Source: Chrysemys picta bellii (Eukaryota > Chordata > Testudines > Emydidae). Taken from it: a DNA stretch of 64,000 nt. The DNA lies in contig NC_088791.1 in NCBI RefSeq assembly GCF_011386835.1, forward strand, positions 8,494,998 through 8,558,997, in the 5' to 3' direction. A program made the position numbers and the translations under genes. Of this stretch, positions 24,558 to 60,932 are shown one piece after another (the first letter of the stretch is position 1; the number at the start of each line of letters is the position of its first letter). Below the pieces are notes generated by a model. It saw nothing but the letters and a program-made list of their open reading frames with translations. It did not search any database and was not told the origin of the DNA.

Positions 24558-25582
24558 CCAAATCAAATTAATAGGCAGTGGGTTTAAAACAAATGAAGTA
24601 TTTCTTCACACAACACGCAGTCGACCTGTGGAACTCCTTGCCGGATGATGTTGTGAAGGCCAAGACTATCACAGGGTTCAAAAAAGAACTAGATAAGTTC
24701 CTGGAGGATAGGTCCATCCTCCAGGGAAGAAGGAGTGCTAGGCAGAGAGGGGCTCCACTTAACGAAGAGAGAGAAGAGCATCTTCGCAACCTAGTGAAGA
24801 GGGCTTTAAACTAGGTTCACCGGGGGAAGTGGGATGCCGGGAGGAAGCACAAGCAGGAGAGCGTAAGAGGGGAGGACTTCTGACTCATACTGAGAAAGCA
24901 GGACAATCAGTGAGTTATCTTAAGTGCCTGTACACAAATGCAAGAAGCCTGGGAAACAAGCAAGGAGAACTGGAAGTCCTGGCACAGTCAAGGAATTATG
25001 TGACTAGAATAACAGAGACCTGGTGGGATAAATCACATGACTGGAGTACTGTCATGGATGGATATAAACTCTTCAGGAAGGACAGGCAGGGCAGAAAAGG
25101 TGGGGGAGTGCATTGTATGTAAGAGAGCAGTATGACCGCTCAGAGCTCCAGTATGAAACTGTAGAAAAACCTGAAAAAAGAACAGGAGTACTTGTGGCAC
25201 CTTAGAGACTATCAAATTTATTAGAGCATAAGCTTTCGTGGACTACAGCCCACTTCCTCGGATGCATATGCAGTGACCATGAGATAGTCGAGTTCAGGAT
25301 CCTGACACAAGGAAGGAAGGAGAGCAGCAAAATACGGACCCTGGACTTCAGAAAAGCAGACTTTGACTCCTTCAGGGAACTGATGGGCGGGATCCCCTGG
25401 GAGAACAACATGAGGTGGAAAGGAGTCCAAGAGAGCTGGCTGTATTTTAAAGAATCCTTATTGAGGTTGCAGGAAAAAACCATCCCAACGTGTAGAAAGA
25501 ACAGTAAATATGGCAGGCGACCAGCTCGGCTTAACGGTGAAATCCTGGCTGACCTTAAACGAGAGCACTTCCAGTTTACCTG
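24558..25582 (+). pseudogene. Rearranged CR1 LINE fragments (+)
   Basis: Two CR1 pieces lie in tandem. The first (about 24558-24716) encodes the C-terminal end of ORF2, including VDLWNSLPDDVVKAKTITGF. The second (about 24780-25582) is the start of ORF2: CLYTNARSLGNKQGELEVLA, then ITETWWD of the apurinic-type endonuclease. After a short repeat insertion it resumes with SDHEIVEFRILTQGRKESSK. Internal deletions and stops make it non-functional. Confidence 0.75.
25172..25263 (-). repeat. Short hammerhead-like repeat, single unit (-)
   Basis: On the - strand it reads GCATCCGAGGAAGTGGGCTG, then TAGTCCACGAAAGCTTATGC, then AAGGTGCCACAAGTACTCCT. This is the unit that forms the palindrome at 49475-49634. 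A 7-bp stem (GTGGGCT/AGTCCAC) lies between a CCGAGGA box and GAAA. It interrupts the CR1 endonuclease region. No clear target duplication was found. Confidence 0.7.
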
Positions 25583-25739: not shown

Positions 25740-26119
25740 GGCGTTTATGTCGAAGTTAGCGCCGTTAAATCGAATTAACCCTGCACCCGTCCACACTGCG
25801 ATGCTATTTAGTTCGACATAGAGGTCTCTTTAATTCGACTTCTGTACTCCTCCCCGACGAGGGGAGTAGCGCTAAATTCGACATGGCCATGTCGAATTAG
25901 GCTAGGTGTGGATGGAAATCGACGCTAATAGCTCCGGGAGCTATCCCACAGTGCACCACTCTGTTGACGCTCTGGACAGCAGTGCGAGCTCGGATGCTCT
26001 GACCAGCCACACAGGAAAAGCCCCGGGAAAATTTGAATTTGAATTCCTTTTCCTGTCTGGCCAGTTTGAATCTCATTTCCTGTCTGGACATCGTGGCGAG
26101 CACAGCAGCACTGGCAACG

Positions 26120-28166
26120 ATGCAGAGCTCTCCAGCAGTGATGGCCGTGCAGTCTGGGAATAGAAAGAGAGCCCCAGCATGGACTGATCGTGAAGTCTTG
26201 GATCTCATCGCTGTGTGGGGCGATGAGTCCGTGCTTTCCGAGCTGCGATCCAAAAGAAGGAATGCAAAGATCTACGAGAAGATCTCTAAAGACATGGCAG
26301 AGAGAGGATACAGCCGGGATGCAACGCAGTGCCGCGTGAAAATCAAGGAGCTGAGACAAGGCTACCAGAAGACCAAAGAGGCAAACGGACGCTCCGGATC
26401 CCATCCCCAGACATCCCGTTTCTACGAGGCACTGCATTCCATCCTCGGTGCTGCCGCCACCACTACCCCACCAGTGACCGTGGACTCTGAGGATGGGATA
26501 CTGTCCACGGCCGGTTCCTCAGACATGTTAGGGGACGGGGAAGATGAGGAAGGAGATGAGGAGGGCGAGGCAGTTGGCAGCTCTCACAACGCTGATTTCC
26601 CCGACAGCCAGGATCTCTTCATCACCCTTACAGAGATCCCCTACGAAGCGTCCCCAGCCATTACCCCGGACACAGAATCTGGTGAAGGATCAGCCAGTAA
26701 GTGTTGTAAACATCTAAACATTTATTTTTAACAAAACAGGAATATTAACAATTAAAAGAATGGGTTGTTCATGATTAGTGTGCCCTAGGCGCTTAACGGT
26801 TTAGTAAGGGGCAGTGCAAGTTTTGAAAAGAAATCTAGCAATGTCCGGTTTTCAGTGATTGTCCTGCACAAGCCGCTCTACTGTGTATTCCCTGCTACTG
26901 CAGCTACAGTAAAATGCGGTCTATATGTGCGGGGATAGAGCAGTAATCCTCCTGGGACATCTCGATGAAGCTCTCCTGGAGGTAACTTGAAAGCCGTTGC
27001 ATGAGGTTCTTGGGGAGAGCGGCCTTATTGGGTCCTCCGAAGTACGACACGTTGCCGCGCCACGAGATTATCAGGTACTCGGGGATCATTGCTCTGCACA
27101 GCAGGGCGGCATACGGCCCTGGTCTTTGGAGGCTTTCCCGGAGCATTCTCTCTTTGTCGCTCTCGGAGATCCTCATCAGGGTGATGTCGGCCATGGTGAC
27201 CTGCTTTTAATTAGGTAGGGGAATGTTAGTGTTGGGACTGCTTTCCCGTTCCTTTACAGAACTGTCACCGCTGGTTTGCAGCCACGCGGTGGAGGCGGGA
27301 GAGGGGCAGCCGAAAGGGATCATTCCCGGGGACAGCCGCGAGGGGGTGGGACAGGGGCAGAGTTCCCGCTTGCCGGATTGCTGGCAGCAGGGACTGACAT
27401 TGATTTAAATGTGAAATGAGGCCAGTGGTAATATAAAAGTTTTAAACTGCCACAAGTGTACGGCTTACCATGTCTGCCTGCAACAGAAATTCCGTTGTGC
27501 TGCCTCGCTTCTCAAATGTGCTGTTCAAGACCCCAGGCACAGAATGCGAAGGCCGAGAATTCGACCTTGTGCTGAGTGCGCATGTGAAAGGTGCTGTGCA
27601 TGGTCTTGTTCACAGAGAAAGACTATGTTCTTTGTTCACAACTACATTTATCTTTCAGAGGAATTCACTCCCTTTTTCCCATTTCCACAGCCCCGTCTGC
27701 GACTGTCTCACAACCTAGCCTGGAATCACACTCCCAGAGGCTAGCGCGGATTAGGCGTAGGAAGAAGAGGACACGGGAGGACATGTTCTCTGAGCTTATG
27801 GCCTCTTCCCAAGCCCAGGCAGCACAGCAGACCCAGTGGCGGGAGAACTTGACCCGAATGCACCAAGCCAACATGGATCGGGAGGAGAGGTGGCGGCAGG
27901 AAGACCAGCAGGCGACTCAAACGCTGCTTGGACTACTGAGGGAGCAAACGGACACGCTCCGGCGCCTTGTGGATGTTCTGCAGGAACGGAGGCAGGAGGA
28001 CAGAGCCCCGCTGCAGTCCATCTCTAACCGCCCTCCCCCGCCACCAAGTCCCATACCCACCTCACCCAAAGTGCAAAGAAGGAGAGGCGGCAGAGTCCCT
28101 GCTAACTCTCACTCCACCCCTGCAGAGAGCTCTAGTAGCAGAAGGCTCTCATTTCCCAAAATTTGA
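26120..28166 (+). CDS. Harbinger Myb/SANT-like DNA-binding protein (two exons)
   Basis: The partner protein of PIF/Harbinger transposons binds element ends and helps bring the transposase to them in the nucleus. Exon 1 is 26120-26696 with donor GCCA/GTAAGT. Exon 2 is 27691-28166 with acceptor CCATTTCCACAG. The joined frame is open for 350 residues. Residues about 15-110 form a trihelix/Myb-SANT-like domain (KRAPAWTDREVLDLIAVWGD, then KIYEKISKDMAERGYSRDAT, then CRVKIKELRQGYQKTKEANG). A Glu/Asp-rich linker follows. Exon 2 gives a Gln/Arg/Glu-rich, probably coiled-coil segment and a Pro/Ser-rich basic tail. An in-frame upstream ATG at 26033 would add 29 residues; I prefer 26120 because the upstream part is not domain-like. 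It converges with the transposase gene. Confidence 0.85.
26721..26726 (-). terminator. Candidate - strand poly(A) signal for the 96-codon ORF
   Basis: TTTATT on + is AATAAA on -. It lies about 180 bases beyond the stop of the small - strand ORF at 26904-27194. It is consistent with a transcribed third gene but could be chance in an AT-rich intron. Confidence 0.3.
26904..27194 (-). CDS. Unrecognised 96-residue ORF inside the Harbinger element
   Basis: I do not recognise this protein. It starts MADITLMRISESDKERMLRE and ends with EDYCSIPAHIDRILL. It has a balanced, non-repetitive composition with regular hydrophobic spacing, and its start context, CACCATGG, is close to the Kozak optimum. It lies antisense within the single intron of the Myb/SANT gene. 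Described Harbinger elements usually have only a transposase and a Myb-like protein, so it could be a third element gene, an exon of a longer antisense transcript, or a chance ORF. An AG just upstream (AAAAGCAG/GTCACCATGG on -) could act as a splice acceptor, but its pyrimidine tract is poor. Confidence 0.45.
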   Translation of the reverse strand: MADITLMRISESDKERMLRESLQRPGPYAALLCRAMIPEYLIISWRGNVSYFGGPNKAALPKNLMQRLSSYLQESFIEMSQEDYCSIPAHIDRILL

Positions 28167-28915: not shown

Positions 28916-30199
28916 TCACAGGTTACCCTGCTCACTCAGGAACTTTGCTTTCAAAGCCTCCCGGATGCACAGCGCGTCCCGCTGGTCTCTTCTAATCGCC
29001 CGGCTGTCTGGCTGTGAGTAATCACCAGCCAGGCTATTTTCGTCAACCTCCCACCCCGCCATAAAGGTCTCCCCCTTGCTCTCACAGAGATTGTGGAGCA
29101 CACAGCAAGCTGCTATAACAATGGGGATATTGGTTTCGCTGAGATCACAGTGAGTCAGTAAGCTTCTCCATCTCCCCTTGAGACGGCCAAAAGCACACTC
29201 CACCACCATTCTGCACTTGCTCAGCCGGTAGTTGAAGAGTTCTTTTTCAGTGTCCAGGGCGCCAGTATAGGGCTTCATGAGCCAGGGCATTAGCGGGTAG
29301 GCTGGGTCCCCGAGGATGACTATAGGCATCTCCACATCCCCAACAGTTATTTTGTGGTCCGGGAAGTAAATACCTTGTTGCAGCCGTCTAAACAGACCAG
29401 AGTTCCTGAAAACACGAGCGTCATGAACCTTGCCCGGCCATCCCACGTAGATGTTGGTAAAACGTCCCCTGTGGTCCACCAGTGCTTGCAGCACCATGGA
29501 AAAGTATCCCTTTCGGTTAATGTACTGGGTGGCCTGGTGGTCCGGTGCCAGGATAGGGATGTGAGTTCCATCTATGGCCCCACCGCAGTTTGGGAATCCC
29601 ATCGCTGCGAAGCCATCTATGATCGCCTCCACGTTTCCCAGGGTCACTACCTTTGGCAGCAGTACATCAACGATTGCCTTCGCTACTTGCATCACAACAA
29701 CCCCCACGGTAGATTTGCCCACCCCAAACTGGTTCGCGACTGACCGGTAGCTGTCTGGCGTTGCAAGCTTCCACAGGGCTATGGCCACTCGCTTCTGTAC
29801 ACTCAGTGCAGCTCGCAACCGGGTGTCACTGCGCTTCAGGGCAGGGGACAGCAACTCACAAAGTTCCAGGAAAGTTCCCTTCCGCATGCGAAAGTTTCGC
29901 AGCCACTGGGATTCATCCCAGACCTGCAGCACTATGCGGTCCCACCACTCAGTGCTTGTCTCCCGTGCCCAGAATCGCCGTTCCACGGCATCAACATGAC
30001 CCATTGCCACTGTGATGTCCTCGGCGCTGGGTCGCCTGCTTTCTGACAGGTCTGTGCTACTCTCAGACTTCAGGACATCACCGCGGTGCCGTAGCCTCCT
30101 TGCCTGACTTTTCTGCATCTGCCTCAGGGAAACCTTTATGATAAGCTGCGAGACGTTGAGAGCGGCCACAACTGCAGCGATGGTCGCAGCGGGCTCCAT
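28916..30199 (-). CDS. PIF/Harbinger DDE transposase (HARBI1-like), intact
   Basis: This nuclease cuts and joins the element's ends, working with the Myb/SANT partner encoded on the opposite strand. It is a single uninterrupted 427-codon frame. The N-terminal third is basic and Ser-rich. A helix-turn-helix-like region (YRSVANQFGVGKSTVGVVVM) lies at residues 151-170. The DDE_Tnp_4-type catalytic core follows, with D210 in GAIDGTHIPI, D278 in ILGDPAYPLMPWL and E314 in VVECAFGRLKGRW. The length and all three acidic residues fit active family members. It starts with ATG at 30199, about 380 bases inside the right TIR. The most similar sequence in the window is the decayed copy at 34.4-35.2 kb. Confidence 0.95.
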   Translation of the reverse strand: MEPAATIAAVVAALNVSQLIIKVSLRQMQKSQARRLRHRGDVLKSESSTDLSESRRPSAEDITVAMGHVDAVERRFWARETSTEWWDRIVLQVWDESQWLRNFRMRKGTFLELCELLSPALKRSDTRLRAALSVQKRVAIALWKLATPDSYRSVANQFGVGKSTVGVVVMQVAKAIVDVLLPKVVTLGNVEAIIDGFAAMGFPNCGGAIDGTHIPILAPDHQATQYINRKGYFSMVLQALVDHRGRFTNIYVGWPGKVHDARVFRNSGLFRRLQQGIYFPDHKITVGDVEMPIVILGDPAYPLMPWLMKPYTGALDTEKELFNYRLSKCRMVVECAFGRLKGRWRSLLTHCDLSETNIPIVIAACCVLHNLCESKGETFMAGWEVDENSLAGDYSQPDSRAIRRDQRDALCIREALKAKFLSEQGNL

Positions 30200-48204: not shown

Positions 48205-48261
48205 CTGCAGTTGAATAAGAAAGAAAAACATGTCAGCTAAGTTAAATTACACACTCTGAAG

Positions 48262-48518
48262 CATATGCAGTGTTGATGTAGCCATGTTGGTACCAGGATA
48301 TTAGAGAGACTAGGTGGGTGTGGTACTATTTTTTATTGGAACAACTTCTATTAGGGAGAGAGAGGAGCTTTCGTGCTTCCACAGAACTTCTGAGTATATT
48401 TCAGTACTTCTGAGTACATTTCCCAGACCTGAAGAAGAGCTCTGTGTAAGCTCGAAAGCTTGTCTCTCTCTGAACAGCACAAGCAGGTCCAATAAAAGAA
48501 ATTACCTCATCCACTTTG
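48262..48518. mobile_element. 257-bp inverted-dimer insertion with an 11-bp target duplication
   Basis: ACACTCTGAAG at 48251-48261 is repeated exactly at 48519-48529. The insert holds two diverged head-to-head copies of one repeat. The left, on -, runs outward through GCACGAAAGCTCCTCTCTCT to a tail GGTACCAACATGGCTACATC. The right, on +, runs CCTGAAGAAGAGCTCTGTGT, then AAGCTCGAAAGCTTGTCTCT, and ends near CCAATAAAAGAAATTACCTC. A CTGAAGA box, a 5-bp stem (GAGCT/AGCTC) and GAAA give a hammerhead-like layout. Confidence 0.85.
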
Positions 48519-48814
48519 ACACTCTGAAGAGGACATCCATGAACCTAGGGCCACAGTTACTGCCTCTTTCTTTCTGCCCCCAAAATGGGCACAGAATAAT
48601 GTGGCAAAGCAACATTATGTTGTACCTGTATCCTGTACCCATCAACCCTTAACCAGGGGACGGGGCTACTCAGGAAGACCAGGGCTTTAAAAAGCCCATT
48701 CCAAAGCGACCAGAGGAGCTAGCGAACAGGAGCGGCTAACGGGAGTTTTGCGAGGGAGTTCTCCAGGGAAAGTGTGTGTGTGTGGGGAGGGGATACATAC
48801 ACTTAACATTCCTT

Positions 48815-48914
48815 CAAGTATCAGAGCGGTAAGTGAGTCTGGATCTGTAAAAAGCAACAAAGAGTCCTGTGGCACCTTATAGTCTATAAGGTGCCACAGG
48901 ACTCTTTGTCGCTT
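48815..48914. mobile_element. 100-bp inverted-dimer insertion with a 12-bp target duplication
   Basis: TTAACATTCCTT at 48803-48814 and 48915-48926 is identical. Arms 48850-48882 and 48884-48916 form a 33-bp hairpin with one mismatch and a one-base centre. The outer left part, read on -, ends in a tail (CAGATCCAGACTCACTTACC) resembling the tails of the neighbouring insertions. Confidence 0.85.
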
Positions 48915-49011
48915 TTAACATTCCTTAAACTTCTTGAAACTTAAAGCCAAAAACACCCCCTGATAAAAACAAAACAAGAACAAAGGAACAAGCTTCAGGA
49001 GTAAACAGAGA

Positions 49012-50113
49012 ATGCAGGCAGAAGTCCAGCAACAGAGTGGGGGTTCCCCAGTTTATTGCACCCAATGCAGCATATATGATTACCTGCCCTATGGGCAGGT
49101 GGTGAATGTGTCCCTTTGGTGCAAGGAGCTTCTGGGCCTCAGAGACCACGTATGGGCTTTGGAGACCAGGATGGCTGAACTGGAAGAGCTAAGGGAGATA
49201 GAGAAGTACATAGAGGAGACTTTCCGGGACACAGTAGAATGGTCCCACCCCCAGTCTGAAAGCCTCTCTGCTGTTGAGGAGGGTGAAAGTCTCAGGGAAG
49301 AAGAGCATCTAACTGGAGCAGAGGGAAACGATCCCATAGTTGGGACCCTCCTTCTAGATGATGTTGCGGTATCTTCTCACACTGAGGATACCTCTCCGGG
49401 GGAGGGAACTCTAGTTATTAGGAAGAGACAGGTATTAGTAATGGGTGATTCGATCATTAGAAACATAGATAGCTGGAGTACTTGTGGCACCTTAGAGACT
49501 AACAAATTTATTAGAGCATAAGCTTTCGTGGACTACAGCCCACTTCTTCGGATGCATCCGAAGAAGTGGGCTGTAGTCCACGAAAGCTTATGCTCTAATA
49601 AATTTGTTAGTCTCTAAGGTGCCACAAGTACTCCTGTTCTTCTTTTTGCGGATACAGACTAACATGGCTGCTACGCTGAAACCTGTCATAGATAGCCGGG
49701 TTTGCGATGACCAGGAGAACTGCATTGTGACTTGCCTGCCTGTTACGAAGGTTGCAGATCTCTCGAGACATCTAGATAAGCTTATGTGTAGTACTGGGAA
49801 GGAGCCAGTGGTCCTGGTACACGTAGGTACCAATAATATAGGGAAAGATAGAAGAGAGGTCCTGGAGACCAAATTTAGGCTGCTAGGTAAGAGACTGAAG
49901 TTCAGGACCTCCATGGTAGCATTCTCTGAAATAATTCCAGTTCCACATGCAAGGCCAGTTACACAGGCAGAACTGCAGGGTCTCACTGCGTGGATGAGAC
50001 AATGGGGTAGGGAGGAGGGGTTTAGATTTATTAGGAACTGGGGCAACTTTTGGGAAAGGGGGAGCCTATACAGAAAGGATGGGCTGCACCTAAACCAAAA
50101 TGGAACCAGATAG
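49012..50113 (+). pseudogene. CR1 ORF1 (esterase domain), broken by an insertion
   Basis: CR1 ORF1 is an RNA-binding/chaperone protein with an SGNH-type esterase domain in this clade. The first part (49012-49473) has a Cys-containing N-terminus (CTQCSIYDYLPYGQ), a coiled-coil-like stretch around ALETRMAELEELREIEKYIE and the nucleophile motif VMGDSIIRN. After the 213-bp insertion the frame resumes at about 49697 with HVGTNNIGKDRRE and ends with KDGLHLNQNGTR. These three blocks are the GDS, GTN and DxxH signatures of the esterase. Insertion plus duplication adds 223 bp and shifts the frame. Confidence 0.85.
49474..49686. mobile_element. 213-bp insertion containing a perfect 160-bp palindrome
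   Basis: CATAGATAGC at 49464-49473 and 49687-49696 is a perfect 10-bp target duplication. Positions 49475-49554 and 49555-49634 are exact reverse complements, 80 bp each with no spacer. The right unit continues into a tail TGCGGATACAGACTAACATG then GCTGCTACGCTGAAACCTGT. At the unit start, CCGAAGA, the 7-bp stem GTGGGCT/AGTCCAC and GAAA give a hammerhead-like layout. Confidence 0.92.
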
Positions 50114-50214
50114 CTGGCGCTTAAAATTAAAAAGGTCATAGAGAAGTTTTTAAACTAAGGGCTGAGGGAAAGCCGACAGATGCGGAGGAGCATGTGGTTC
50201 AGACATCCCTTAGG

Positions 50215-53070
50215 GGAAGATCTATAAATGGAGATTCGCTATGTCCTAATAAGGAGGAGAGGATGGAAGATGATAAAATACAGGCAGGATCTGATGAGAA
50301 ACAGTCAAAAGGAAAAAAGTCCCATTCAATTACATCATGTAATGGCAGACAGCTAAAAAGTAACAAGTTTTTAAAGTTCTTATATACAAATGCTGGAAGT
50401 CTAAATAATAAGATGGGTGAATTAGAGTGCCTCATATTAAATGAGGATATTTATATAACAGGCATCACAGAAACTTGGTGGTATGAGGATAATCAATGGG
50501 ACACAGTAATACCAGGGTACAAAATATATCAGAAGGACAGACCAGGCCGTGCTGGTTGGGGAGTGGCACTATCTGTGAAAGAAAGCATAGACTCAAATGA
50601 ACCAAACTGTACCATAGACTCTCTATGGATAGTAATCCCATGCTTGAATAATAAGAATATAGCAGTAGGGATACATTACCAACCACCTAACCAGGATGGT
50701 GATAGTGCCTGTGAAATGCTCAGGGAGATTAGAGAGGCTATTAAAATAAAAAACTCAATAATAATGGGGGATTTCAACTATCCCCCTATTGACTGGGTAC
50801 ATATCACCTCAGGAAGGGATGCAGAGATAAAGTTTCTTGACATCTTAAATGACTGCTTCTTGGAGCAGCTATTCATGGAACCCAAAAGAGGAGAGGCAAT
50901 TCTTGGATTTAGTCCTAAGTGGAGCATCTGGTCCAAGATGTGAATATAGCTGGACTGCTTGGTAATAGTGACCATAATATAATTAAGTGTAACATCCCTG
51001 TGGCAGGGAAAACACCACAGCGGCTCAACACCGTAGCATTTAATTTCAGAAAGGGGAACTACACAAAAATGAGGAGGTTAGTTAAACAGAAATTAAAAGG
51101 CACAGCACCAAAAGTAAAATCCCTGCAAGCTGCATGGAAACTTTTTAAAGACGCCATAATAGAGGCTCAACTTAAACGTATATCCCAAATTAAAAACCAT
51201 CGTAAGAGAACCAAAAAAGAGCCACCGTGGCTAAACAACAAAGTAAAAGAAGCAGTGAGAGGCAAAAAGGCATTCTTTAAAAAGTGGAAGTTAAATCCTA
51301 GTGAGGAAAATAGAAAGGAGCATAAACTCTGGCAAATGAAGTGTAAAAATATAATTAGGAAGGCCAAAAAAGAATTTGAAGAACAGCTACTCAAAGACTC
51401 AAAAAGTAATAGCAAAAAAAATGTTAAGTACACCAGAAGCAGGAAGCCTGCTAAACAACCAGTGGGGCCACTGGATAATCGAGATGCTAAAGGAGCACTC
51501 AAAGACGATAAGGCCATTGTGGAGAAACTAAATGAATTCTTTGCATTCGTCTTCATGGTTGAGGAGGTGAGGGAGATTTCCAAACTTGAGCCATTCTTTT
51601 TAGGTGACAGATCTGAGGAACTGTCCCAGATTGAGGTGTCATTAGAGGTGGGTTTGGAACAAATTGATAAACTAAACAGTAATAAGTCACCAGGACCAGA
51701 TAAGATTCACCCAAGAGTTCTGAAGGAACTCCAATGTGAAATTGCAGGACTACTAACTGTTGTCTGTAACCTATCATTTAAATCAGCTTCTGTACCAAAT
51801 GACTGGAGGATAGCTAATGTGACGCCAATTTTTAAAAAGGCTCCAGAGGTGACCCCAGCAATTACAGGCCAGTAAGCCTGACTTCAGTACTGGGCAAACT
51901 GGTTGAAACTATAGTAAAGAACAAAATTGTCAGACACATTGATGAACATAATTTGTTGAGGAATAGTCAACATGATTTTTGTAAAGGGAAATCATGCCTC
52001 AGAAATCTACTAGAATTCTTTGAGGGGGTCAACAAGCATGTGGACAAGGGGGATCCAGTGGATATAGTGTACTTAGATTTTCAGAAAGCCTTTGACAAGG
52101 TCCCTCACCAAAGGCTCTTAAGCAAATTAAGCCGTCATGGGATAAAAGGGATTGGTAACTGGTTAAAAGATAGGAAACAAAGGGTAGGAATAAATGGTCA
52201 GTTTTCAGAATGGAGAGAGGTAAATAGTGGTGTCCCCCAGGGGTCTGTACTGGGCCCAGTCCTATTTGACATATTATGATCTGGAAAAAGGGGTAAACAG
52301 TGAGGTAGCAAAATTTGCAGATGATACAAAATTACTCAAGATAATTAAGTCTCAGGCAGACTGCAAAGAGCTAAAAAAAGATCTCTCAAAACTGGGTGAC
52401 TGGGCAACAAAATGGCAGATGAAATTCAATGTTGATAAATGCAAAGTAATGCACATTGGAAAAAATAATCCCAACTGTACATATAAAATGATGGGGTCTA
52501 AATTAGCTGTGACCACTCAAGATAGCTTGGAGTCATTGTGGATAGTTCTCTGAAAACATCCACTCAATGTGCAGCAGCAGTCAAAAAAGTGAACAGAATG
52601 TTGGGAATCATTAAGAAAGGGATAGATAATAAGACAGAAAATATCATATTGCCTTTATATAAATCCATGGTACGCCCACATCTTGAACACTGCGTGCAGA
52701 TATGGTCGCCACATCTCAAAAAAGATATACTGGACTTGGAAAAGGTTCAGAGAAGGGCAACAAAAATGATTGGGGTATGGAACGGCTTCCGTATGAGGCG
52801 AGATTAATAAGAATAGGACTTTTCAAATTAGAAAAGAGACTACTAAGGGCAGATATGATTGACATCTATAAAATCATGACAGGTGTGGAGAAAGTTAATA
52901 AGGAAGTGTTATTTACTCCTTCTCATAACACAAGAACTAGGGGTCACCAAATGACATGAATAGGCAGCAGCTTTAAAGCAAATAAAAGGAAGTATTTTTT
53001 TCCACACAATGCACAATCAACCTGTGGAACTCCTTGCCAGAGGATGTTGTGAATGCCAAGACTATAACAG
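50215..53070 (+). pseudogene. CR1 ORF2 (endonuclease and reverse transcriptase), frameshifted
   Basis: ORF2 nicks target DNA and reverse-transcribes the element RNA. The APE-like endonuclease begins near 50350 (LKFLYTNAGSLNNKMGELEC, ITETWW) and includes IIMGDFNYPPIDW. A frameshift near 50920 leads into GNSDHNIIKCNIPV and a Lys-rich linker. A further shift near 51860 precedes the RT core: DIVYLDFQKAFDKVPHQRLL, NSGVPQGSVLGPVLF, then the catalytic KFADDTKLL. A small deletion lies just before the FADD box. The C-terminal region (LPLYKSMVRPHLEHCVQIWS) is followed by more shifts. Confidence 0.88.
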
Positions 53071-55767: not shown

Positions 55768-57156
55768 TTAAGGAGGTAGGGACTTCGGATCTGGTAGGAA
55801 CGCCGTTGAAAGTACCGCCCTGCCCAAGCGTATGTCAGATAGAGGGCCTTGAGTAAGGGCATAGTGTTTAACAAAAGTGTGGTCAGAGGACCAGGTGGCT
55901 GCTTTACAAATGTCAGCCAAGGGAACTTTGCGTAAGAACGCGACAGAGGCAGCCAGAGATCTAGTGGAGTGTGTTCTAATGCCGTCTGGAGGTGTAACCC
56001 CCTTCATCTGATAGCACAGTCGTATACACTGGGAGATCCAGTTCGAGAGTCTCTGGGTAGAAATAGGCGTGCCTTTGGAGCGCTCTGCAATAGAGACAAA
56101 AAGTCTGGAAGAGGTTCTAAAAGGTTTGGTTCTATCCAAATAGAATGACAAGGCTCTGCGAACATCTAGTGTATGCATTGAGGTTTCAAAGGAGTTCGCA
56201 TGTGGTTTTGGAAAAAAAATCGGCAGGTGTATGGGTTCATTAATATGGAATGACGAGTGTACCTTTGGAAGAAATTTGGGGTGTAATCTGAGGGTAACCT
56301 TGTCTTTAAAAAATATCGTATATGGTGGGTGTGCCATAAGAGCTGCTATTTCTCCTGCCCGTCTGGCAGAGGTAATTGCCACTAGAAACGCTGTTTTCAT
56401 CGAGAGGTGTAAAAGGGAGCACGTGGCTAGGGGTTCGAAAGGTTGTTGAGTTAGGGCAGACAGTACCAGATGAAGGTCCCACGGGGTGGTCGGTGGTTTA
56501 ATGTCTGGGTATAAGGTTTGTAGTCCCTTGAGGAAACGCTTCGTAATATCGTGAGCAAAGACAGACGTATCATCAATTCTGTCGTGGAAAGTCGTAATAG
56601 CAGCTAAATGGACCCTGATGGAGCTGAACGAAAGGCCGGATTGCTTAAGGCCCAAGAGATAGTCCAATATAATTGAAAGAGGTACCGAGGTAGGACAAAG
56701 GTGTTTAGCAGAACACCAATGTGTGAATCGTTTCCACTTTTGAAGATAGGTCTTGTGAGTAGATTGCGTTCTGCTATGTAGGAGTACCTCCTGAACTTGT
56801 TCGGAGCAATCTAATTCGCGTTGGGAGAACCACGTAGGAACCAGGCCTTGAGGTGAAGCATGGACAGGTTGGGGTGGAGAAAACGGCCGTGCTGTTGAGA
56901 TAGAAGGTTTGGGATAAGCGGCAGGGAGATTGGTGGTTGGATTGACATTCTGGTGAGGAAGGGAAACCACGGTTGTCTGGGCCACGATGGGGCAATGAGG
57001 ATCACCTTGGCTCGGTCCGTTCGTATTTTTATCAGAACCCTGTTGAGAACTGGTATCGGGGGAAACGCATAAAATAGGTTTCGGTGCCATGAGATCATGA
57101 ATGCGTCCCCCAGGGAATGTTTGCCCAGTCCTGCTCTGGAGCAGAAATTGAGACAT
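55768..57156 (-). CDS. DIRS tyrosine recombinase, intact ORF
   Basis: This enzyme integrates the circular DIRS DNA by site-specific recombination instead of a DDE integrase. The frame is open for 462 codons. The N-terminal part (1-110) is Pro/Ser-rich. Core-binding helices span about 125-215 (THKTYLQKWKRFTHWC). The catalytic domain carries the first Arg in TSARRAGEI (R265/R266), HSTR (H396, R399) and the nucleophile Tyr432 in KHYALTQGP. All R-HxxR-Y residues are present. Its start overlaps or abuts the end of RNase H at 57185 in another frame, as is common in DIRS elements. Confidence 0.92.
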   Translation of the reverse strand: MSQFLLQSRTGQTFPGGRIHDLMAPKPILCVSPDTSSQQGSDKNTNGPSQGDPHCPIVAQTTVVSLPHQNVNPTTNLPAAYPKPSISTARPFSPPQPVHASPQGLVPTWFSQRELDCSEQVQEVLLHSRTQSTHKTYLQKWKRFTHWCSAKHLCPTSVPLSIILDYLLGLKQSGLSFSSIRVHLAAITTFHDRIDDTSVFAHDITKRFLKGLQTLYPDIKPPTTPWDLHLVLSALTQQPFEPLATCSLLHLSMKTAFLVAITSARRAGEIAALMAHPPYTIFFKDKVTLRLHPKFLPKVHSSFHINEPIHLPIFFPKPHANSFETSMHTLDVRRALSFYLDRTKPFRTSSRLFVSIAERSKGTPISTQRLSNWISQCIRLCYQMKGVTPPDGIRTHSTRSLAASVAFLRKVPLADICKAATWSSDHTFVKHYALTQGPLSDIRLGRAVLSTAFLPDPKSLPP

Positions 57157-57184
57157 TTCTTGTTTTTTGCAGTTGCAAAAAGGT

Positions 57185-58750
57185 CTATGGTTGGGTAACC
57201 CCAGGTGCTGAATACATCGTGAATGGTTTTCTCGTTATCTCCCACTCGTGGTCCCATGGGAAGCGTCTGCTTAGTTCGTCCGCTGTGGTGTTCATGATTC
57301 CGGGAAGATAGGCTGCTGATACCCGGACGTTGTTCGCAATGCACCAATTCCAGAGCTTCATAGCCTCTGTGCACAGCGAATGGGATCGAGCTCCGCCCTG
57401 CCTGTTTACGTAAAACATGCATGCAATGTTGTCCGTCATTATGCGTACGTGATGATGCTTGATTAGTGGCAGGAAGTGACGGCACGCGTTGCGAATGGCT
57501 CGAAGTTCTAGAACATTTATGTGCAGGGAGGTCTCGGTTGGTGACCATAGCCCCTGTACTGTGTGATGAGACATATGTGCATCCCAGCCTGTCATAGATG
57601 CATCGGTGGTCAGAATGAATGATGGAGCCTGTTGAAGAAACGGGACTCCAGAGCAGAGGTTGGAGTGGACGGTCCACCAATGTAGCGAATCTTTGACTGG
57701 AGTAGGCAGGGAGAGAGTCTTGTTTAAAGAGTGCATATTCGGTTTGTAGACCGTTGCCAGCCACGCTTGGAAGCACCTCATGTATAGGCGTGCATTCTGG
57801 ACGACAAAAGTGCACGAGGCCATGTGACCTAGTAGTTGCAGGCAGTCTCGGGCAGTTACCTGAGGGCTGTCGCGAATAATTGTGGCCAGTTGGTTTATGG
57901 AATTGAAGCGATCGGGTGGGAGCGATGCTAGCCCCGTCCGGGAGTCGAGGTCTGCGCCTATGAACTGCAGGTGCTGGGTGGGGCGTAATGTGGATTTGTC
58001 TGTTTATTTGTAGGCCGAGAGATAGAAAGCAATCGACTGTGAGCAGTGTGAACCGGAGCGCCTCGTCGAATGTTGAAGCTTTGAGGAGGCAATCGTCGAG
58101 GTAAGGGACACTATGACCCCTTGTTTCCTGAGGTAGGCAGTGACTTCAGCTAGAAGCTTGGAAAAAGCACGGGGGGCTGTAGATAGTCCGAAGGGGAGTA
58201 CCCTGTATTGGAAATGTGTGGAACCGAGGGTAAATCGGAGGAAACGTCTGTGGGCCGGATGTATAGTGACATGGAAATAGGCATCTTGTAGGTCGAGGGC
58301 AGAAAACCAGTCGCCCTGCTCCAGCGCTGGGATTATGGTAGTGAGGGTAACCATCTTGAACTTTTGCTTTTTGATGAATCTGTTGAGCCGCCTGAGATCG
58401 AGGATTGGTCGCCATCCCCCATTTTTCTTCTCCGTTAAGAAATAATGGGAGTAAAAGCCCTTCCCTCTGTGTCGTTCTGGCACGACTTCTACTGCTCCCA
58501 GATGAAGGAGATGTTGCACTTCTTGGAGGAGTAGCTGCTCGTGAGAAGGGTCCCTGAAGAGGGACGGGGAGGGTGGGTGGGTGGGAGGTAAGGAGAGGAA
58601 GGGGATGACGTATCCAATTGTAACTACCTCTAAGACCCACTTGTCGGAGGTAATCTTCCTCCATTGATGGAAGAAAGGTCGTAGGCGGTGTCCAAAGATA
58701 GGTGTGTCGGCTGAAGTGGGGGCGTTGCTTTCTAAACCCTCGACCAAGTC
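57185..58750 (-). pseudogene. DIRS reverse transcriptase-RNase H, frameshifted
   Basis: The RT part (58747-58115) has EKKNGGWRPILDLRRLNRFI, WFSALDLQDAYFHVTIHP and VLPFGLSTAPRAFSKLL. The YLDD active-site box is present near 58090-58105 but in another frame, so there is a frameshift just before it (about 58108-58118). RNase H follows in 57823-57185: ILTTDASMTGWDAH, INVLELRAI, RIMTDNIACMFYVNRQGG and NTTADELSRRF supply the D-E-D-D residues. The part between the frameshift and 57823 is also readable but interrupted. Confidence 0.9.
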
Positions 58751-58751
58751 T

Positions 58752-60932
58752 TCAAATCTGCCTATTAGCTGGTGGGGGTTGAGGTGCCCCTGCAGAGTTT
58801 GGGCGACGTCGCTGGAATCTTGGTCTTTGACGTTGTGGTTGTTGCTGTTCCTGCGGTCTATGGGAATGTTGTGTAAATGCGGGATAACGTGGCCGGTGGT
58901 ACGGTTGGTATCGATATTGCCGTCTTCTGGTCGTAGGTGCCTGGAGACCTAGAGACCGGAGGGTTGTCCTGGAGTCCTTCATTGAATGAAGCACTTCATT
59001 CGTGGTAGAAGCAAAGAGTTTGTCACCGTCGAAGGGAAGATCTTCAATTGTGCTCTGAACTTCGCGAGGAAAAAAAGGAAGAGGAGAGCCATGAGCCCCG
59101 TCGCATGACTATCGCTGTAGCAGTCGATCTTGCCGCTGTGTTGGCTACATCGAGGGCTGCTTGGAGAGCGGTGCGTGATATGGCTTGTCCCTCAGAAACC
59201 ATAGCTCTGAACTGTTGTTTTCTTTGTTCTGGAATGTCATCAATAAAGTCCATTAACTTATTATAGTTTTTATGGTCGTATTTTGCCAGGACTGCAGTAT
59301 AATTAGCTATACGAAATTGGAGGGTGGAGGATGCATAGACCTTACGACCAAAAAGGTCCAATCGTTTGTTATCCTTGTTGGGTGGGGCAGAACGAGAATA
59401 CTGTTGTCTAGCCCTCTGGTTCGCAGCGTCTACTACCAATGAATTTGGTGTTGGGTGGGTAAAAAGGAATTCAGAGTCCTTTGGAGAGATAAAATACTTC
59501 CTGTCTGCTTGCTTGCAGGTAGGTAGGCTTGTCGCTGGAGTCTGCCAGATGGACTTAGCGGGTTCTAAAAGGGCTGCGTTAATTGGGAGTGCCACTCTGG
59601 AGGAAGAAGGGGGCTGTAGGATGTTCGTTAGCTCATGCTGTTGTTCGGTGACCACGTCCAGGTTAATTCTCAGGTCACTGGCAACTCTTTTAAAGAGGTC
59701 CTGGAATTTTGTATATTCATCTGAGGGAGTGGGAGGAAGGGGAAGTAATGCTTCTTCAGGTGCCAGCTCCGGTTCTGTTGGAACAGGAGTAGGGCTAGGT
59801 TTATCCTGGGAGCGTGGCTGTGTTGCCAGGCGTCTCGTGTCACTGGCATATTCGTTAGGAGACGGCGCTGGATCAGTGTTGCGCCTGGTCGAGTGGCCAC
59901 GGGGCATGTATTCCCGAGGGTATGATGCCCATGGTGTCCAGTATCGCCATGGTGGCGGGTAGGGCATAGGTGGTGCCATCCAGGGGTTCACCCCCCAGGA
60001 GGCAGGGTCCTGAGAGTGGGATGAGGTAGTTTTCTCATAACCCCTATTGCCCTGGGTCCGGGGCTGGGAGTCATGATATGGAGAAAAAACTCCCTGCGGA
60101 TCTGTTTCCTCCTCACTGGAGGAAAACTGCTCAGATCCTGACTCAGGCATTGAAAAAGAATATTCATTCATGAGCGGAGACTGCAAGGTAGGTGATACCA
60201 GAAGATCTGCTGTCTGGGTAAAGTGAGTTAATGAAGCTCCTGCGGGAGATGAAAGCTGAGCCGGGAGAGGCTGCCGCACAGGAGCATTTCCGCGATCGGG
60301 TTTCTGCCTGTGATCTCTGTGTCAGAGTGCACCGCAGGGGTCGGTGCCGCGGTCGGTGCCGGGCGGGCAATATCAGGCTGCCTGGGGTCAGGCATGCTGT
60401 GGAATGTCGGCATCGTCTCATTTGCGGTGCCGAACGGTGCCGTAACAGAGGCAGGCAACTGGAAGCCTGATGCCTCGGCACCGGAGCCTCGCGCCGCCGC
60501 CGGAGCCTCAGGCGGCTTTTGCGCGGTTCCCGAAGAGCCCGGCTCATGAAAGTTGCTGAGGCGAGGAAACACAGGCAGAGAGATCGTTGATCTGCCTGGA
60601 GATACTTTGTGCCTCATAGCCTTGTTTGGTGAAGAAGGGTGCCCCTTCTTCGTAGATTTTTTCAGTTTTTTTGAGGCGGGGGGGCTGTGTCGGGTCGCGG
60701 AGCCGGCTTCAACGCCTGGGTCTGAAACTGACCCGATAGACTTTTGAAGGAGGAGCAGTTTAAGTTTAAGCTCCCTGTCTTTCCGTGCCCTGGAGCTGAG
60801 TTTACAGCAGTGGGCACATTTTTGGGGAATGTGAGCTTCCCCCAAACATTTTATACACTTTGAGTGTCCATCCGATAATGGGATAGCTTCCTTGCAGGTA
60901 GCACAGCGCTTGAAACCGGTGGAGCCCGGCAT
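58752..60932 (-). pseudogene. DIRS gag-like ORF, frameshifted
   Basis: The start at 60932 gives a Cys-rich N-terminus, KRCATCKEAIP then CIKCLGEAH and CAHCCKLSSRARKDREL, a zinc-binding-like pattern. A basic and Pro/Ala-rich region follows. The frame is lost near 60230-60280 and continues in another frame to about 59044, with Ser/Pro/Glu-rich sequence (SGSEQFSSSEEETDPQG) and a helical block (KVYASSTLQFRIANYTAVLA). It shifts again toward a Gln/Arg-rich end (to 58752). The role by family is RNA binding and particle assembly. Confidence 0.75.

Follow-up and report, generated by a model that had tools for sequence, protein, structure and literature searches.

The three insertions at 48262-48518, 48815-48914 and 49474-49686 of the window, by which we mean the whole 64-kb stretch of Chrysemys picta bellii DNA that was analysed, are 3'-terminal pieces of Penelope-like elements (PLEs). 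Each of them is a head-to-head inverted dimer between target duplications of 10-12 bp, just as an earlier note on this DNA had described them. Concerning their origin, we consider it probable (about three chances in four) that such insertions are made by two-sided target-primed reverse transcription, in which each strand uses a different RNA start site. The element type is already known, as are inverted dimers and a short optional tail as PLE features, and in the portions of the literature consulted inverted dimers appear as an established structural class of PLE (PMC3846280, PMC11167929). The occurrence of one tail per dimer, the sequence unique to each arm, the resemblance between the arms, and the symmetric target are new as far as our searches show. 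A strict rule of one tail per insertion was not found stated in the sections of the PLE literature searched, and no paper was found that combines PLEs, the hammerhead ribozyme, and turtles.

Three inverted dimers and their source element

The first dimer belongs to family 1. Its left arm (48262-48388, minus strand) carries the 3' tail at the outer, left end, its right arm (48417-48518, plus strand) is tailless, and the 11-bp direct flanks ACACTCTGAAG lie at 48251-48261 and 48519-48529. The right arm contains a hammerhead-like core, CTGAAGA...GAAA (48429-48457, plus strand), a pattern match that the Rfam models did not recognise. The second dimer, of family 2, consists of a tailed left arm (48815-48883, minus strand) and a tailless right arm (48884-48914, plus strand) between the 12-bp direct flanks TTAACATTCCTT at 48803-48814 and 48915-48926; owing to the palindromic centre, the inner boundaries of its arms may be off by a few bases. 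In the third dimer, of family 3, the tailless left arm (49475-49554, minus strand) is a perfect inverted copy of 49555-49634, and the tail is found on the right arm (49555-49686, plus strand). Both of these arms match the hammerhead-like pattern CCGAAGA...GAAA (49524-49551, minus strand, and 49558-49585, plus strand). The direct flanks CATAGATAGC at 49464-49473 and 49687-49696 can be read as 10 bp without or 13 bp with one mismatch. Direct repeats of equal length around same-sized stretches occurred in 1, 25, and 8 of 20,000 random placements within the window for dimers 1, 2, and 3, respectively.

The arms are 80 bp long, 100% complementary, and without spacer in dimer 3, 37 bp and 95% complementary in dimer 2, and 33 bp and 85% complementary in dimer 1. 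Dimers 2 and 3 are the sole inverted repeats of the 64-kb window that pass a seeded scan (innermost 6 bases paired, arms of at least 30 bp, complementarity of at least 90%, spacer of at most 60). The tail, AACATGGCTAC and variants thereof, is borne by the left arm in dimers 1 and 2 and by the right arm in dimer 3, and the arm without tail ends about 40-55 nt before the tailed one. The arms can be assigned to three related families (f1, f2, and f3), in agreement with the earlier proposal of different subfamilies with a common tail. The shared tail itself had been noticed rightly in every dimer, but it is present on one arm only and not on both. A fourth copy in the window is a single tailless family-3 arm (25174-25267, minus strand), for which inspection by eye found no target duplication.

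PLEs had been offered before as a candidate source, and this is supported by longer copies, which hold PLE-like reverse transcriptase and GIY-YIG fragments. These copies run, in pieces, from the unit into the 3' region and a GIY-YIG/reverse transcriptase frame (L013, L025, L029, L066, L067, L092), and the same downstream coding sequence enters the unit in L013, L025, L067, and L092. The L029 fragment contains GTRMAPQFANIFMADLE...YIDD, a motif that in our assumption resembles the PLE-type reverse transcriptase, and matches Pfam RVT_1 with an E-value of 1.4e-4, which is under the curated cut-off. The L025 fragment matches Pfam GIY-YIG with an E-value of 1.1e-3, just under the curated cut-off. 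The L029 fragment had no Pfam match of its own in the GIY-YIG test; among its relatives are two Chrysemys proteins that bear the name GIY-YIG domain-containing and a further protein with PF01541 (P0003), and proteins of Lepidochelys, Gopherus, and Chelonia match it at 68-88% identity. Homology thus supports the reading of a putative GIY-YIG domain upstream of the terminal repeat. P0003 is a partial 'GIY-YIG nuclease family protein' recorded under Listeria monocytogenes on a contig of 345 bases; it is 71% identical to the reptile element and probably represents reptile DNA contaminating a bacterial assembly. Two further PLE traits are present here, namely inverted terminal repeats with a short tail on one of them, and target duplications of variable length, with a mode of 12 bp.

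Pattern matching located the hammerhead-like core CYGANGA...GAAA in the single copy at 25174-25267 as well as in dimers 1 and 3; Rfam did not call it as a hammerhead. Over the window, Rfam gave no match at curated thresholds, and its hammerhead models did not recognise the dimers at low thresholds either. The low-threshold matches in dimers were mostly to microRNA models (49496-49613 and 48838-48930 in the window; L040, L045, and L053). A microRNA identity of the dimers was rejected as an artefact, the models fitting the hairpins, and palindromic PLE copies could pass for microRNA genes. When collections of viral and prokaryote sequences were searched, a degenerate 17-base pattern matched two viral contigs (L009 and L010) and a 21-base pattern matched nothing.

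Immediately downstream of dimer 3, with a partial overlap, follows an open reading frame with a GDSL lipase-like domain that scores below the cut-off (in 49012-51875); the next reading frame in this region has an endonuclease domain above the cut-off. The part of the first frame left of dimer 3 gave no Pfam match, and an empty site for dimer 3 was not found in the DNA searched. The region is probably a LINE, presumably of CR1 type, whose first reading frame appears to have been interrupted by dimer 3. Elsewhere in the window, a Myb/SANT-like reading frame of 232 residues (26033-26731; PF13837, E-value 1.1e-21) and one of 427 residues with a DDE_Tnp_4 transposase domain (28916-30199; E-value 1.1e-36) are encoded on opposite strands. 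The pair is reminiscent of a DNA transposon, which we take to be of PIF/Harbinger type, and both genes are open. A cluster of minus-strand reading frames at 55768-60932 with a reverse transcriptase (58004-58747), an RNase H (57185-57823), and a LAP2alpha-like match just under the cut-off (59044-60279, minus strand) is probably a second, unrelated retroelement.

Frequency of dimers in the genome

The assembly searched comprises 2.37 Gb in 9732 contigs. Exact 25-base words of the repeats are found 2828 times (f2 core), 1807 times (f2 tail junction), and 21,861 times (f3 tail), and reversed control words of the f2 core, f2 tail, and f3 tail gave no match in the genome. Fourteen pieces of the genome, taken at round coordinates on 12 contigs and together 140 kb long, yielded 11 insertions, which gives about one in 13 kb. 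Extrapolation from these few pieces leads to a rough genome total on the order of 200,000 copies.

The head-to-head dimer is the commonest form of these repeats. In sample (a), obtained with a one-arm f2 query including the tail, 26 of the 40 scored loci, every one of which was read, are dimers, among them dimer 2 of the window. Sample (b) consists of 40 loci in genomic order, the window's own left out, that contain an exact tail-free f2 core word; 22 of these are dimers, 21 recognised by script and the interrupted L096 by eye. In sample (c), the 140 kb, dimers account for 8 of the 11 insertions, and in the window for three of the four copies. The shares in the three samples support the view that making or inserting this repeat involves inversion. 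Neither a prevalence of monomers nor a failure of the duplications to recur, the outcomes that the earlier note had set against its own reading, was found, and the duplications far exceed the controls with mismatched flanks. Among the first 100 of the 2828 core sites listed, all 16 close pairs (less than 600 bp apart) are head-to-head, minus then plus, and no close pair is tail-to-tail or on the same strand.

The non-dimers amount to 14 of 40 copies in sample (a) and 18 of 40 in sample (b). At least four single arms of sample (a) have a duplication of 10-12 bp (L013, L025, L030, L035), and five of sample (b) have one at, or at most 10 nt from, the 5' end of the arm (L102, L109, L111, L113, L133). 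Because single arms with their own duplication exist, inversion is not obligatory. L100 and L132 end in a scrap of 9-12 bases resembling a second arm, and L101 has a cut-off opposite arm at its end; these three were noticed by eye and excluded from the dimer count. The remaining non-dimers of sample (b), of which short pieces were read, may be of either kind. The family-1 loci came from a dimer query, and therefore their dimer share (37 of the 38 loci read, out of 40 scored) is not used as a frequency. Five of them (L004, L005, L008, L044, L056) contain the same f1 dimer with similar flanks within 100 kb of contig C20 (18.59-18.69 Mb), which is probably due to local duplication and not to new insertions; four of these (L005, L008, L044, L056) were left out of the f1 set of 33.

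Additional copies, not included in these shares, were seen in the flanks of other loci. L014 and L031 contain extra dimers, with the tail on one arm wherever it could be read, and L003, L012, L016, L038, and L040 contain extra single arms. At L031 (1-378), an f3 dimer sits inside an arm of an f2 dimer and therefore gives the relative age order of both copies.

Tails, target sites, and arm ends

In the f2 samples, the 140 kb, and the window, every dimer has one tailed and one tailless arm, the tail being about 40 nt long. In sample (a), all 26 f2 dimers have one arm whose outer end is at unit position 124-132 and one whose outer end is at 85-93, the end of L024, where the aligner had over-extended, being set from its duplication. 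The tail-independent sample (b) matters because a query containing the tail cannot reveal dimers without it. Here, too, a tailed arm is paired with a tailless one in all 22 dimers; L131, over-extended by the aligner, was settled by eye from its duplication, and the second arm of L120 ends at about u63. The same holds for 8 of 8 dimers in the 140-kb sample, where L093 is interrupted by a later insertion and was read by eye, and for the three dimers of the window, two of them (dimers 1 and 2) being counted in the f1 and f2 sets as well. Within family 1, one clear full tail is present in 29 of 33 events and two in none; in L048, L050, L054, and L075 the tail is partial or too diverged to call, and in L046 and L072 the tailless end falls beyond 96-113, where the alignment is doubtful. 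A dimer with two full tails was thus seen neither in the f1 and f2 sets nor in the 140 kb or the window. Close opposite tail pairs were absent from the first 100 f2 tail sites listed (65 checked by script and the rest by eye) and from the first 100 f3 tail sites listed. Of the 16 core pairs, 13 contain one exact tail word, three contain none, and not one contains two.

The flanks of the dimers match far more often than expected by chance pairing. An exact match of at least 8 bp is found at 25 of 47 dimer loci, five of which are the C20 loci of one local duplication event, versus 1.4% of mismatched flank pairs; at 19 of the 47 the exact match is at most 6 bp. If one mismatch is allowed, a rule without a separate control, duplications of at least 8 bp are present in 22 of 26 f2 and 18 of 33 f1 dimers. 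The modal length is 12 bp (14 of 39 and 9 of 18 in two sets), and boundaries are uncertain by 1-3 nt where the ends overlap T runs of the element. For the base count the target sites were turned so that the tailed arm is on the left, and T was dropped from the background because a maximal match cannot precede the element's own base. With this correction, the first set has C before the duplication in 23 of 40 and G after it in 20 of 40 sites (p = 1.3e-4 and 3.7e-3), the second sample in 12 and 9 of 18 (p = 9e-4 and 0.047), and both together in 35 (position -1) and 29 (position +1) of 58 (p = 5e-7 and 5e-4). The signal of the f1 sites alone is weaker (C in 9 and G in 6 of 18). The target is symmetric, C/about 12 bp/G, as would be expected for a dimeric enzyme that cuts each strand before G. 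In a dimer of a fourth subfamily (L094, 3874-4020), about 8 bases separate the usual tail end from the 12-bp duplication, perhaps because its RNA start site is further downstream.

The arms of one dimer resemble each other. In family 2, the identity within dimers is 0.954 compared to a mean of 0.921 for re-paired arms, and none of 2000 shuffles came as high as the observed figure (25 of the 26 dimers being measurable). In family 1 it is 0.872 compared to 0.861, with 5 of 2000 shuffles as high, and the excess is small. Twelve variable f2 sites were tested. At the two with two common bases, sites 84 and 48, the arms agree in 22 of 25 dimers (12.9 expected) and in 15 of 20 (9.2 expected); with rarer variants there is little or no excess (4, 7, and 8 agreements at sites 8, 17, and 27, with 4.4, 7.4, and 8.7 expected). 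This resemblance fits an origin from one RNA, from sister RNAs of one locus, or gene conversion. The inner junctions and the arm lengths vary between dimers. Several f2 cDNAs, for example those of L028, L032, L033, and L062, have their 5' end close to CATGCGTCTGACG, immediately ahead of the hammerhead-like core, which might point to a favoured stop or an RNA end at this place.

A target-primed cDNA that folds back at its free end and copies itself would also result in an inverted repeat, and self-priming on an antisense template has been proposed for rotifer Penelope from recurrent junction palindromes, being the explanation favoured in the sections consulted (PMC3846280). The perfect 80-bp palindrome of dimer 3, without any spacer, and the high identity of the arms are compatible with fold-back. 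However, a copied arm should be contained in the other one. Instead, the tailless arm reaches at least 10 nt further 5' than the tailed arm in 9 of 26, 7 of 21, and 8 of 33 dimers (24 of 80 in total); the reverse holds for 5, 6, and 0 (11 of 80), and the two are within 10 nt in 45 of 80, extents being measured up to the reference start in these counts and the tail of L050 being unclear. In the 24 dimers each arm has sequence that is absent from the other, and therefore neither is a plain copy of the other. The arms of L116, bracketed by an exact duplication of 14 bp, have no sequence in common at all (u92-124 in the tailed and u1-88 in the other arm). In addition, fold-back needs a second-strand synthesis that stops about 40 nt short every time. 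The 11 and the 45 dimers are allowed under fold-back, and later deletion at the palindrome centre could also produce asymmetric arm ends in some copies and rescue it in these cases. The arm ends are thus strong, although not final, evidence against fold-back copying, which we regard as unlikely.

L1-like twin priming, in which the second target end pairs by chance inside the same RNA and an inverted segment is generated, seems less likely still. Twin priming of L1 also gives one RNA source, junction microhomology, and target duplications, and would account for these features here likewise. It differs from two-sided priming at two start sites mainly in that the internal start is a matter of chance and not fixed. 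The starts of the tailless arms are narrow and not scattered: all 26 f2 dimers of sample (a) have them at unit positions 85-93, a range no wider than that of the tail end, and 19 of the 21 scripted dimers of sample (b) have them at 82-93. Moreover, the dimers are the main form, and not a minority as under twin priming. It is very improbable that the dimer itself is the mobile unit, copied as a whole in the manner of DNA transposons that have terminal inverted repeats. The f1 dimer query did match many loci across nearly its full 257 bp, but the inner junctions and arm lengths differ among dimers, the outer ends differ in that one includes the tail, copies with a single arm occur, and longer copies hold reverse transcriptase and GIY-YIG fragments; a MITE, with its fixed termini and fixed interior, was rejected on the unequal ends and variable junctions. 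Least credible of all is a chance rearrangement or two adjacent separate insertions, because a single duplication brackets both arms and all 16 close pairs share the head-to-head order, even if repeats of this abundance (2828, 1807, and 21,861 exact 25-mers) will have neighbours.

Proposed two-sided priming and related systems

Under two-sided target-primed reverse transcription, a GIY-YIG endonuclease would nick each strand once, about 12 bp apart, at the symmetric C/about 12 bp/G target, and both exposed 3' ends would prime separate cDNAs on the element RNA. The tailed cDNA would begin at the distal RNA start site, and the tailless cDNA would begin about 40 nt further upstream, at the second one. 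Both would extend toward the RNA 5' end, halt at variable points, and join head to head, and repair of the staggered cut would yield the target duplication. A single RNA would presumably be the source for each insertion, and the subunits of the enzyme would presumably be assigned to the two sites. The inverted dimer would then be the usual product, and single arms would represent insertions one of whose cDNAs is absent, very short, or was overlooked. For a PLE of the anole, not for the turtle family, the use of two start sites and the extension of both strands have been demonstrated in vitro, in the portions of the study consulted (PMC11167929).

Several observations count against this reading. 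As many as 14 of 40 and 18 of 40 copies were not counted as dimers, and both the identity excess and the target signal are weaker in family 1. The high arm identity could stem from gene conversion. The coding region is seen in fragments only, which are below the Pfam cut-offs, and the hammerhead was not called by Rfam. In addition, start-site use was equal on top and bottom strands in vitro, as far as described in the sections consulted (PMC11167929), which does not by itself predict one start of each kind per insertion.

The closest structural counterparts are the Penelope elements of the rotifer Adineta vaga. In the parts of the source consulted, Pen2a and Pen3 have inverted pseudo-LTRs, most frequently head-to-head, and there is an optional 31-bp tail on one repeat, one repeat is 37 bp shorter, and duplications are 8-10 bp long (PMC3846280). 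The turtle dimers share with them the inverted repeats, the head-to-head majority, the tail on one repeat, the duplications, and the junction palindromes. However, the rotifer copies described there are few and mostly coding, in full or in part, whereas most copies read here are about 100-270 bp long, non-coding, and very numerous, and the duplication is about 12 bp. For the rotifer, self-priming on an antisense template is favoured; in the turtle, the arm ends speak against fold-back copying. Inverted pseudo-LTRs and 3' extensions have been noted in PLE elsewhere too (PMC8969392, in the sections consulted). Another close counterpart is PAc, a Poseidon PLE of the green anole, which in the consulted portions of the report combines GIY-YIG and reverse transcriptase, has a hammerhead motif, cuts and extends both strands, and uses two adjacent internal start sites that define a tail of 30-40 nt (PMC11167929). 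According to the same portions, PAc prefers AT-rich (ATT) targets and not C/about 12 bp/G, and its strands do not differ in start site, whereas here each dimer has one tailed and one tailless end.

The hammerhead-like motif and the link to the PLE machinery also recall the non-autonomous animal retrozymes. Retrozymes are tandem units that produce circular RNA. Those of animals carry type I hammerhead motifs with PLEs suggested as mobilizing machinery, and PLE hammerheads are called minimal variants, in the sections consulted (PMC7761336). In contrast to these, the turtle units are inverted and, in longer copies, continuous with PLE 3' sequence.

The completion of the second strand in PLEs involves further steps that are yet to be validated according to the portions consulted (PMC11167929). 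The contribution of the turtle data is a pattern, established by counts, which agrees with two-sided priming at two start sites, one for each strand, and weighs against fold-back. With tens of thousands of short, readable products (21,861 exact f3 tail words), the genome is a natural experiment on strand completion, and the one-tail pattern, the symmetric 12-bp target, and the arms that are often not copies of each other make the question directly testable. The findings also explain a large class of palindromic repeats with hairpins resembling microRNA precursors. With about as much confidence as doubt, we propose in addition that PLE insertion may be a concerted two-ended reaction by a symmetric dimer whose halves are forced onto different start sites, so that every complete insertion would receive exactly one tail. 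If this is true, the 'optional tail' of PLEs would be the obligatory mark of one strand and not a variable feature.
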